Assembly: GCA_913031625.1 (NCBI GenBank)
Contig: CAJWGB010000036.1
Location: forward strand, 1 to 33,317
DNA from: an uncultured Planctomycetaceae bacterium
GTDB lineage: Bacteria > Planctomycetota > Planctomycetia > Planctomycetales > Planctomycetaceae
DNA: 33,317 nucleotides
Direction: 5' to 3'
Within the stretch, counting starts at the first letter, position 1. Each line of letters opens with the position of its first letter. Below are positions 16,563-23,322 of this stretch, piece after piece. The position numbers and the translations under genes were made by a program. The notes beneath the pieces were generated by a model, which worked only from the letters and a program-made list of their open reading frames with translations, was not told the origin of the DNA and made no database searches.

Positions 16563-18152
16563 CTACTCTTCTTCAGGGTCAGGATTAGCCAGAGCGGCGG
16601 CCTTGGCACGATATTTTTTAGCCAGACTTGGCTCTCCCGTCTTCTCGTAGATCGTCGCAAATTTGACGTAGACGGGGCGTTTGTCGGGGATTGTCTTGAT
16701 GGCTTCGTCGAAGTCGGTCAGAGCACTCTCCCAGTCTTCCTGCAGGAAGTAGATGGTGCCTCGTGTGTCTTTGAAGTTGGCCGAATTAGGCTGGAGTTCA
16801 ATTGCCTTTTGGACCAGTTCCATTGCCAGGTCAAACTTCGGTTCTTCTGCATGAGCCAGCAGCCATGCGAGGTTATTCATGACGACTGCCATGTCGTCTC
16901 GAATTCTAAGCGCCCGATTGAAGTGGCGGATTGCCAGTTCCTGATTTCCTTCCAGCCAGTACAGGTTGCCCATTGCAAGGTGCGCCAGAGCAGGCTCCTT
17001 GCCGTCAATGATGACTGACTCAAGGACATCCCGCAAAGTGCCGTTGCCGGACACGTTGGCCTGTGCGTAACCCATGAGCCGGTTCAGGGCGAGTCCGTTA
17101 TTAGGGTTGTATTCCAGAGCGACCCGAATCCTGGTAAGCAGGTCACTGATCGACGGCGGGTTCTCAGTATCTGCCAGCATGAATTCATGCACTGTCATTG
17201 TCAGGTTTGACAGATACTTGTTGAAGGTGTCGCGGCTCTCTTCGTGCCGTTCCGCCCCTTCTCTGAGGACACGTTCGGCTTCACCGTATTCTCCGAGGTA
17301 TGACAGCACACGTGCGTAGTCGATCCTGATCTTTTGGTTGTTCTGGTCCTGAGCCAGCTCATTGGACAGGTAACCCCTCGCTTTCAGAAAGTAGGTGCGG
17401 TGCTCTGCCTTCTGCAGTGCAAACAGGAGTTCACCCACGATTGAGTAGAGTTGTTCGTACTCTTCCGATGCGCGTTTCAGATACTCGACAGCCTTTTCCC
17501 GGTCGCGGACTGAAACGTAGTAGCGCCCCCATGCCATTTCGACTTCCGGAAGAGTGTCGTTGCGGGCGGCGTTCAGGTGGAAGAGCAACCGGTCTTTCTC
17601 TTCCTTTGAGCTGTTGACGTTAATCGATTCAGCAAGAATCATCGCCAGTCGGCGGTGGGCATCCGGATGTCCCTGACCCTGGTCTTTGGTCCCATACGGG
17701 GCAAGCAGTTGATAAAGCGCTTCTGCTCTTCCAACGTCGTTGCGTTCGTCATAAACCCGTGCCAGTTCCAAACGCGCGTCGTTTCGACGCGCGGGCGACT
17801 CTTCCATGACACGCTGAAGGAGCATGATCGCCTTGTCATGTTCTTTCTTACTGATTGCACTCTTCGCCGCCTTCCAGTAGTTGCCGGCGTTTTCGTCGGT
17901 GCACGCATTAACCGCACCTGCGATCACGACTGCAGTGATGCCGACGATGATTGCCGGAATGCCCAGCCAGAAGTTACGACCTCGACGAAGACTCCATGAA
18001 TCCATGAACAGCTCAAACGGCCACTTCACCCATGCGAGGTAGAAGTCGAGTTTCAGCATGTTGGGCCATCGCCATTCCTGCCACCAGTGTCGTACGGGGC
18101 GGGTGAGGCGGCGGTAGTAGCGGTGAATTCCTTTTGCGGCTTTGAGGAACAC
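16563..18152 (-). CDS. Membrane-anchored tetratricopeptide-repeat protein of the exosortase locus
   Basis: The product is 529 residues. The first 60 are rich in Arg and Trp and probably cytoplasmic. One transmembrane helix follows (LGIPAIIVGITAVVIAGAVN, about 64-83). The rest looks like TPR repeats, for example AIMLLQRVMEESPARRNDAR, AHLAMGNLYWLEGNQELAIR, FNRALRIRDDMAVVMNNLAW and TRGTIYFLQEDWESALTDFD. It ends in an acidic tail. The start is a GTG whose first base is the last base of the exosortase TAG stop, so translation is probably coupled. TPR proteins recur at exosortase and exopolysaccharide loci as assembly or scaffold factors; that role is inferred here. The call of a TPR protein is firm, its partner is not known. 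Confidence 0.85.
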   Translation of the reverse strand: MFLKAAKGIHRYYRRLTRPVRHWWQEWRWPNMLKLDFYLAWVKWPFELFMDSWSLRRGRNFWLGIPAIIVGITAVVIAGAVNACTDENAGNYWKAAKSAISKKEHDKAIMLLQRVMEESPARRNDARLELARVYDERNDVGRAEALYQLLAPYGTKDQGQGHPDAHRRLAMILAESINVNSSKEEKDRLLFHLNAARNDTLPEVEMAWGRYYVSVRDREKAVEYLKRASEEYEQLYSIVGELLFALQKAEHRTYFLKARGYLSNELAQDQNNQKIRIDYARVLSYLGEYGEAERVLREGAERHEESRDTFNKYLSNLTMTVHEFMLADTENPPSISDLLTRIRVALEYNPNNGLALNRLMGYAQANVSGNGTLRDVLESVIIDGKEPALAHLAMGNLYWLEGNQELAIRHFNRALRIRDDMAVVMNNLAWLLAHAEEPKFDLAMELVQKAIELQPNSANFKDTRGTIYFLQEDWESALTDFDEAIKTIPDKRPVYVKFATIYEKTGEPSLAKKYRAKAAALANPDPEEE

Positions 18153-22431: not shown

Positions 22432-22923
22432 CTACTTCTTGCCCCTGGCTCGCTGTTCCTGAAAGAACTGCTGCAGAATTGCCCGGCAGTCATCGCGCAT
22501 GACTCCGCCGAGTACTGCTGACTGATGATTCAGGCGGATGTCTGAGGTGATTTGAAAGAGTGTGTCACACGCTCCGCCTTTGGGGTCCGGTGTTCCGTAA
22601 ACCACGAATGGAATTCGCGACTGGACAATGGCGCCCGCGCACATTGGGCACGGCTCCAGCGTGACGTACAGCGTACAGTCGAGGAGTCGCCAGGATCCGA
22701 GTTCCTCCGCTGCCTGAGTAATGGCGATCATCTCGGCATGGGCTGTGGGATCGTTCAGAGTCTCCCGCAGGTTGCAGGCTTCCGCGATGACCCGTTCCTT
22801 GTGGACGATGATTGCACCGACCGGCACCTCACCCTGATCCCATGCGGCGACAGCCTGATCCAATGCCTTCTTCATCCAGAATTCGTGTGGCTGTAATGGG
22901 TTGACGTCCGCATCCGGCAGCAT
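22432..22923 (-). CDS. tadA: tRNA-specific adenosine deaminase
   Basis: TadA converts A34 to inosine in the tRNA-Arg(ACG) anticodon, allowing reading of CGU/CGC/CGA. The product is 163 residues from the ATG at 22923, normal length; the frame continues to 23010, but those residues do not match the family. The zinc site is complete: His 62 and the proton-shuttle Glu 64 in AHAEMIAI, Cys 92 and Cys 95 in EPCPMCAGA. The motif [10 protein letters not shown] and the downstream GACDTLFQI region fit. Two palindromic repeats begin 13 bases upstream of the start codon and would overlap its leader or ribosome binding region. Confidence 0.93.
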
Positions 22924-22935
22924 CAGTCGGTGCCT

Positions 22936-22974
22936 TGTAAAAAGTACAACGGGACCTGAGTGTAAAAAGTACAA
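22936..22974. promoter_or_regulatory. Pair of near-identical palindromes (TTGTA-N5-TACAA), 25-bp period
   Basis: TGTAAAAAGTACAA occurs at 22936-22949 and again at 22961-22974. The first copy extends to a perfect palindrome TTGTA-AAAAG-TACAA from 22935. The two copies are separated by 11 bases. This is a typical layout for a dimeric DNA-binding protein that binds cooperatively. They lie just upstream of tadA, and also about 140-180 bases upstream of a sigma-54 promoter pointing the other way, where an enhancer-binding protein would be expected. A weaker relative (CTCG, AAAAATAGTA, CGAG) is at 23081-23098. Confidence 0.65.
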
Positions 22975-23110
22975 TTCTGCAACAGCGTGTAGAGCATTGT
23001 GCGGTCGCATTCAATCAGTCTTCGCGAATCACTCGGGTTCTCTGGCCAAAAAGCCTCGGGAAATGCTCACTTTCTGCTGCCTCGAAAAATAGTACGAGTC
23101 AGTCAGTCAA

Positions 23111-23128
23111 TTGGCACGGTGGTTGCAT
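23111..23128 (+). promoter_or_regulatory. Sigma-54 (RpoN) -24/-12 promoter
   Basis: TTGGCACGGTGGTTGCAT matches the published RpoN consensus TGGCACG-N4-TTGCW at every defined base. The GG (23113-23114) and GC (23125-23126) doublets have correct spacing. The predicted start of transcription is near 23138, directly before the tandem-hairpin region. No sigma-54 activator gene is in the window. Confidence 0.75.
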
Positions 23129-23137
23129 TTCTCGGAG

Positions 23138-23322
23138 GCAGAGAGACGGTTCAGGGGTGAGAGCCTGAACCCGGACTGCCCTGAGAAAGCAGTCAGCACA
23201 TGTCACCTGAGGGTGACAGGCGAAAGAGAGAATGGTCCGCCTGAGAAACGGACCGGACGACAGACCTGAGAGACCTGCCGTCCCTGAAAGAGGCCATCGG
23301 AAGATTCCGATCGGCCTTTTTT
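23138..23322 (+). ncRNA. Candidate structured small RNA of tandem hairpins with repeated CCTGAGARA loops
   Basis: No protein is likely here. From the predicted sigma-54 start the sequence folds by eye into a row of perfect hairpins. H1 pairs GGTTCAGG (23148-23155) with CCTGAACC (23164-23171). H2 pairs GACTGC (23174-23179) with GCAGTC (23189-23194), loop CCTGAGAAA. H3 pairs TGTCACC (23201-23207) with GGTGACA (23212-23218), loop TGAG. H4 pairs GGTCCG (23234-23239) with CGGACC (23249-23254), loop CCTGAGAAA. H5 pairs GGACG-A-CAG (23255-23263) with CTG-C-CGTCC (23275-23283), and its loop contains CCTGAGAGA. An intrinsic terminator closes the unit. H2 and H4 have different stems but identical loops, which suggests selection on the loop. 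I do not recognise a known RNA family. A leader role for the downstream DUF1501 gene is an alternative, but the terminator and a separate promoter favour a free small RNA. Confidence 0.7.
23291..23322 (+). terminator. Intrinsic terminator of the small RNA
   Basis: AGGCC (23291-23295) pairs with GGCCT (23313-23317), and inside it TCGGAA (23297-23302) pairs with TTCCGA (23305-23310). Six T follow the stem (23317-23322). This is a classic rho-independent terminator on the plus strand. Confidence 0.85.

Follow-up and report, generated by a model that had tools for sequence, protein, structure and literature searches.

The window analyzed here, i.e., the whole stretch of 33,317 nucleotides, corresponds to contig 36 in a genome assembly of 444 contigs totalling 6.7 Mb. 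Between tadA, which codes for a tRNA adenosine deaminase and is oriented divergently, and a DUF1501 gene located downstream on the same strand, we have found a locus containing a predicted small RNA, preceded by a sigma-54-type promoter and, further upstream, by two palindromes (Table 1). The RNA is present as a single copy in its own genome (blastn). The initial annotation had placed here, at 23111-23322, a structured and terminator-ended unit of about 185 nt. The position was right and the description was borne out, although the locus additionally takes in the upstream sites at 22935-22974. The longest open reading frame of tadA overruns these putative activator sites, so the true start of the gene is probably further in. 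Elsewhere in the window, an exosortase U gene (NF033780, PF09721; 18152-19633, - strand) adjoins the gene of a TPR protein at 16563-18152.

Table 1. Features of the small RNA locus (positions within the window).
Feature	Position	Strand	Remarks
tadA (tRNA adenosine deaminase), divergent neighbor	22432-23010	-	NF008113 above cut-off
Presumed enhancer (activator) site 1, palindrome TTGTAAAAAGTACAA	22935-22949	+	TTGTA-N5-TRCA present in 30/30 homologues
Second palindrome TGTAAAAAGTACAA, without the first T	22961-22974	+	26 bases beyond the first
Sigma-54-type -24/-12 promoter TGGCACGGTGGTTGCA	23112-23127	+	strict form in 27/30 homologues
Predicted small RNA	23138-23322	+	start inferred from the promoter; fold z -5.17; covariance model and covariation
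5' linker AGAGAGA	23140-23146	+	all seven aligned RNAs keep AGAGA
Hairpin 1, stem of 8 bp, loop GGTGAGAG	23148-23171	+	
Hairpin 2, loop CCTGAGAAA	23174-23194	+	
Hairpin 3, TGAG in the loop, TGAGA incomplete	23201-23218	+	least conserved region
Purine linker AAGAGAGA	23224-23231	+	all seven aligned RNAs keep AGAGA
Hairpin 4, loop CCTGAGAAA	23233-23255	+	
Hairpin 5, one stem mismatch, CCTGAGAGA in the loop	23255-23283	+	
Intrinsic terminator	23287-23322	+	arms 23287-23302 and 23305-23320, then T's

The description of five perfect hairpins was a slight overstatement, since all five are present but only four have perfect stems. The intrinsic terminator at the end was confirmed, and a different terminator hairpin is located at the same place in five homologues. 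The + strand folds with -78.7 kcal/mol, whereas 200 shuffles averaged -56.0 and none did as well (z -5.17). The 29 homologues above 150 nt in length had z values averaging -4.55, all of them below -2. The reverse strand of the window sequence folds still better (z -6.80), so that folding cannot set the strand; this is done by the promoter, the upstream sites and the position of the terminator. The absence of any protein-coding sign also held. Among the complete frames (start to stop) lying within any one of the 30 RNA sequences described below, the longest has 55 codons and is not shared, and the protein-coding reading was rejected for this reason.

A blastn search over 58 relatives found the RNA in seven, including its own genome, and a first covariance model was built from seven sequences. 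This model matched 34 of the 170 genomes of the family at E ≤0.001. Thirty of them, spanning 6 of 58 genera, provided one locus each (L017-L046), of which 29 span the model and one (L042) is cut by the end of its contig. The other four gave short or terminator-like matches, and the one that was read (G086) had no UGAGA hairpin. Within its own genus the RNA was found in seven of the eight genomes, with no match in G001. When a refined model was run against the class (397 genomes), it matched 38, and all matches above 42 bits were within the window's own family; those outside it were either terminator-only or below 34 bits, the best of them (L124) covering a tRNA-Leu gene plus a terminator. Weak members may have escaped the searches of over 40 genomes, for which the filters were stricter. 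A DNA pattern also matched records of Pseudomonas, Actinomycetota and Anaerolineae, in which nothing but the single hairpin matched. One record titled Candidatus Kuenenia (L101) carries the RNA and is probably a mislabelled bin from the window's family.

Compensatory change was abundant in this set. In the seven-sequence alignment, which was not fitted to the model, 13 of the 39 predicted pairs had two-sided changes that kept the pair. In the alignment of 30 sequences 94.1% of the 1126 cells pair and 32 of the 39 pairs show two-sided changes; as this alignment was fitted to the model, its counts lean toward that structure. None of 500 shuffles reached any of five measures, and sliding the partner by 1-3 columns cut the pairing to 30-49%. 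A covariance model of homologues with compensatory changes and a search of Rfam were the checks that the initial annotation had itself proposed. The first gave the family just described (30/170 genomes, 32/39 pairs). In the second, no Rfam family reached its gathering score within the window; at E ≤5 the RNA region gave three matches, all far below the cut-off, and membership in an Rfam family was rejected. Nor did we find a description of this RNA in the literature searched, which omits most subscription journals and is therefore no proof of absence. These data also bear on the idea of a repeated or palindromic DNA element that is not transcribed. The repeated motifs and the good folding of the reverse strand would agree with it. 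Nevertheless, the single copy in the genome, the promoter and palindromes at fixed spacing and the strong covariation leave it hardly credible.

The initial annotation had claimed a full match to the RpoN -24/-12 consensus, and this was verified, TGGCACGGTGGTTGCA having no mismatch and being the sole such match to TGGCACGNNNNTTGCW within the window. Allowing up to two mismatches, there were three matches in the window versus 6.9 in shuffles, and thus only the exact match is meaningful. The start of the RNA predicted from this site, at about 23138, lies 12 nt beyond the GC of the -12 element (transcription is inferred). The strict pattern starts 23-29 nt 5' of the RNA in 27 of the 30 loci, against 0.02 expected from shuffles, while the remaining three are one base off (L035 CGGCATCGTCGTTGCA, L044 TGGTACAGAGGTTGCA and L046 CGGCACACGACGTGCG). 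A -24/-12 promoter at the right distance, as expected of a sigma-54-dependent small RNA, is thereby present. Given that the promoter is outside the covariance model, its conservation is independent evidence. A conserved stand-alone RNA family that sits behind a conserved sigma-54-type promoter is thus supported by computation, with neither transcription nor dependence on RpoN shown.

Upstream enhancer sites, the other feature expected of such a gene, were met by the palindromes in all 30 loci, with no protein-binding data. TTGTA-N5-TRCA(A) starts 158-232 nt upstream of the RNA in 30/30 (0.035 expected). At least two strict copies were found in 14 of the 30, the spacing between the first two being 25 nt (nine loci), 26 nt (two) or 35 nt (three), i.e., 25/26 and 35 nt, which differ by about one helical turn. 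The second palindrome of the window, missing its first T, was left out of this strict count. Across the eight genomes of the genus the strict tandem palindrome occurs at one place, the RNA gene, in five genomes and is absent from the other three, and the control with the reversed pattern gave none. This confinement suggests a dedicated enhancer-binding protein, although the palindromes remain presumed activator sites as long as there are no binding data. The genome has 18 matches to PF00158, eight of them with the exact GAFTGA motif, and the full palindrome was absent from the stretches of the best 12 of these 18 loci. No activator gene was recognised either among the gene clusters common to 21 regions around the RNA, in which PF00158 was not scanned for. 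In this genome the distance between a csrA gene and an activator gene is about 1.7 kb in one case and about 5 kb in another, with other genes intervening; we draw no inference from this.

Clustering of the same 21 regions placed tadA divergently beside the RNA in 11 of them; tblastn did so for G003 and G006. The gene downstream of the RNA is not conserved. A gene of the DUF1501 cluster directly follows the RNA in the window and in G005 only, where the identity is 30%, and judging from this gene order the neighbor is incidental to the putative small RNA. We had to consider whether the RNA acts in cis, as leader or riboswitch of the gene behind it, since the DUF1501 gene is on the same strand and, in related genera, another RNA that shares the hairpin serves as a leader (see below). 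With a terminator ending the RNA and no conserved gene behind it, we regard such a role as very improbable, and for the DUF1501 gene it was rejected.

The most conspicuous trait of the family is a repeated motif. UGAGA appears 3-7 times in 29 of the 30 RNAs, the exception being L046, a diverged member without it, and 132 copies were observed versus 36 expected. GAGA is enriched twofold (310 versus 152 expected from dinucleotide shuffles). In the minimum-energy folds of 29 RNAs, 94 of the 160 predicted hairpin loops carry UGAGA, and in the window RNA four of the five loops do, with UGAG in the third. The mean unpaired probability of GAGA was 0.78 versus 0.30 elsewhere in the RNA (base-pair probabilities). 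Still, the minimum-energy folds leave no more than 79 of 132 UGAGA and 47 of 122 GAGAGA copies entirely unpaired. A decoy is expected to expose one motif in several copies, and this was found, with the limit that many copies are not fully free of pairing. The motifs of the best known decoyed proteins are scarce. For CsrA, GGA was found 74 times versus 145.5 expected and ANGGA 15 versus 86.8, a depletion that is partly forced by the GAGA repeats; for Hfq, (ARN)3 was found 17 times versus 36.1 and AAYAAY 0 versus 1.1. A stand-alone RNA that has many copies of a largely single-stranded motif and few CsrA or Hfq motifs points to a decoy for some other protein.

Hfq was not found in any of 10 genomes, including the window's own, in a search whose control matched in 5 of 14 known genomes, and a canonical Hfq decoy was rejected on the depletion of (ARN)3 and the lack of a detectable Hfq. 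The case of CsrA is less simple. A canonical CsrA decoy was rejected because GGA and ANGGA are depleted, leaving a special case of the decoy reading, in which the RNA would be a planctomycete CsrB that titrates a CsrA paralogue with its specificity moved from GGA to (U)GAGA. The genome codes for seven copies of CsrA and nine relatives for 4 to 12, the paralogues of the window's genome differ by eye in residues near the C-terminal binding segment, and sigma-54 promoters are enriched at csrA genes in Planctomycetia according to the part of a survey available to us (PMC12316311). On the other side are the scarcity of GGA, even if partly forced, and the presence of multi-copy CsrA also in relatives from other families, in which the class search gave no strong copy of the RNA. 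We consider this version distinctly improbable.

The main rival to a decoy is a base-pairing RNA like Qrr, whose loops and linkers would pair with mRNAs containing UUUCUC without the help of Hfq. The sigma-54-type promoter with paired activator palindromes is as in the qrr genes, and the complement of the loop, TTTCTCAGG, has 92 sites in the genome versus 61 for the reversed pattern (two of the 92 are in the RNA gene itself). Of the 30 sites that were read, one (L183, C4:68646) coincides in part with a plausible ribosome-binding site directly ahead of an ATG, and would be a candidate target if the RNA acts by base pairing. However, the failure to detect Hfq in the 10 genomes weakens Hfq-assisted pairing. 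Besides, 30 of the 92 sites were classified as 13 sense coding, 11 antisense and 6 intergenic (two of them the RNA), with no visible clustering at gene starts, although the sample is small. The sameness of the motif across so many loops is also more easily reconciled with one binding site in multiple copies than with a set of seeds. Base pairing thus appears to us unlikely, without being dismissed.

We have found the same hairpin in a second context. Weak matches to the models led to a second, different conserved RNA in other genomes of the family (L115, L116, L117, L120, L121 and L125). It has purine linkers and UGAGA hairpins, follows a sigma-54-type site and precedes a small pilin-like gene, with no terminator obvious by eye. 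Aligned over six genomes, it has a mean column identity of 80%; four of them have one UGAGA hairpin that the other two lack as a unit, so that within this aligned leader family the predicted hairpin is gained or lost as a unit. "Pilin-like" is our reading of the N-terminus of the query, which had no Pfam or NCBIfam match. The gene was found in 78 of 101 genomes of the family and was not found in the window's own genome or in G005. We examined 30 pilin-like loci (L125-L154). A sigma-54 site within 750 nt upstream was found in 18 (0.7 expected), the UGAGA hairpin in the leaders of seven (0.2 expected; nine control motifs gave 0-2) and both together in five. One locus (L128) was mis-cut yet has both hairpin and sigma-54 site, and the counts of seven and five are each probably one too low. 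The pilin-like genes may constitute a large sigma-54 regulon in this family. The TTGTA palindrome was absent from the up to 900 nt scanned at their leaders, which are therefore not obviously under the same activator as the small RNA.

Judged by these alignments and motif counts, the UGAGA hairpin is a module shared between different predicted RNAs of the family, with no target shown in the window's own genome. Scoring 150 of 4343 candidates in the latter recovered the RNA twice plus one coding region, and no target with the hairpin was found. Other matches to the hairpin model were mainly in coding sequence (six loci read). Some further occurrences are worth recording. Upstream of another pilin-like gene (L122, genome G096) there are three successive hairpins with ACCTGAGAGACC loops. 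Two loci (L118 in G104 and L119 in G188) have a single CCTGAGAAA hairpin some 80-145 nt after a TGGCACGNNNNNTGCA sigma-54-like site. At the extreme end of a response-regulator-like ORF (L155, G151:C86:47729-47747) a strong UGAGA hairpin (E 7.8e-4) is followed by a terminator-like hairpin.

The reading that we prefer, to which we give an even chance of being right, is that the small RNA is a multi-site decoy like CrcZ or CsrB, for another and as yet unidentified RNA-binding protein; there are no binding data. A dedicated enhancer-binding protein would respond to some signal by activating the RNA gene, and the RNA, acting as a multi-site decoy, would titrate a protein that reads single-stranded (U)GAGA, thereby freeing the mRNA targets of that protein. 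The candidate targets would be the sigma-54-type leaders of pilin-like genes with the same hairpin in related genera, and a CsrA paralogue could be the bound protein only if its specificity had changed. The more general proposal is that a planctomycete lineage without detectable Hfq has a post-transcriptional regulon of its own, based on a new RNA code. An unknown protein would read UGAGA loops and GAGA stretches in sigma-54-driven mRNA leaders (those of the pilin-like genes, for example) and be titrated by a decoy RNA that a dedicated sigma-54 enhancer protein switches on. This is put forward tentatively, as a possibility that falls short of an even chance.

There are several known systems with which this RNA can be compared. 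CsrB/CsrC and RsmY/RsmZ are rows of hairpins that expose one repeated motif and act as protein decoys. Here there is also a row of hairpins with one repeated motif and presumably a decoy function, and CsrA is encoded in the genome (seven copies), but GGA is depleted instead of being repeated in the loops, and there is no match in Rfam. GlmY and GlmZ are small RNAs controlled by sigma-54, and GlmY acts through a protein. The likeness is in the sigma-54-type control, while the lack of an Rfam match and the many-times repeated loop motif set our RNA apart. CrcZ of Pseudomonas, in the part of the source available to us, has an RpoN promoter, the activator CbrB and several copies of a protein-binding motif, and titrates the protein (PMC4063720). 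Both RNAs have a sigma-54-type promoter and a repeated motif, the titration being presumed in ours. CrcZ has 407 nt with A-rich Hfq sites, whereas here the motif is UGAGA/GAGA, (ARN)3 is depleted and Hfq was not detected (0/10 genomes). The qrr genes of Vibrio are activated by LuxO, which uses two copies of the site TTGCAWWWTGCAA as far as the accessible part of the source tells (PMC10162802). A sigma-54-type promoter with two palindromic sites is common to both, and TTGTA-N5-TRCAA resembles the LuxO site in the style of its half-sites. However, TTGTA-N5-TRCA(A) is two bases longer and the LuxO site as such is not met; the palindrome and its spacing are different, there is no match to Qrr in Rfam and Hfq was not detected. 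The closest analogues, CrcZ, CsrB/RsmZ and Qrr, each fail a tested feature.

The core of the initial annotation, a regulatory RNA behind a sigma-54 promoter, is supported by the lack of an Rfam match, the compensatory changes and the sigma-54 site in 27/30 loci, with transcription untested. What it had missed were the palindromic activator sites, the UGAGA/GAGA repeats and the likeness to decoys of the CrcZ/CsrB type. We regard the RNA family as well supported by comparative sequence data and its mechanism as inferred, since transcription, activator and bound protein are all untested.

Few small RNAs have been catalogued in the PVC part of the tree. The table of a 2022 review, in the portion available to us, has 8 for the whole PVC group versus 345 for Proteobacteria (PMC9029176). 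Here we have a strongly supported family from the Planctomycetota with its own promoter logic. As the tandem palindrome, in its strict form, is unique to the RNA gene in the genus, its activator should be findable. If the decoy reading is true, it would lead to a new kind of RNA-binding protein and RNA motif, in bacteria that have multiple copies of CsrA and in which Hfq was not detected.
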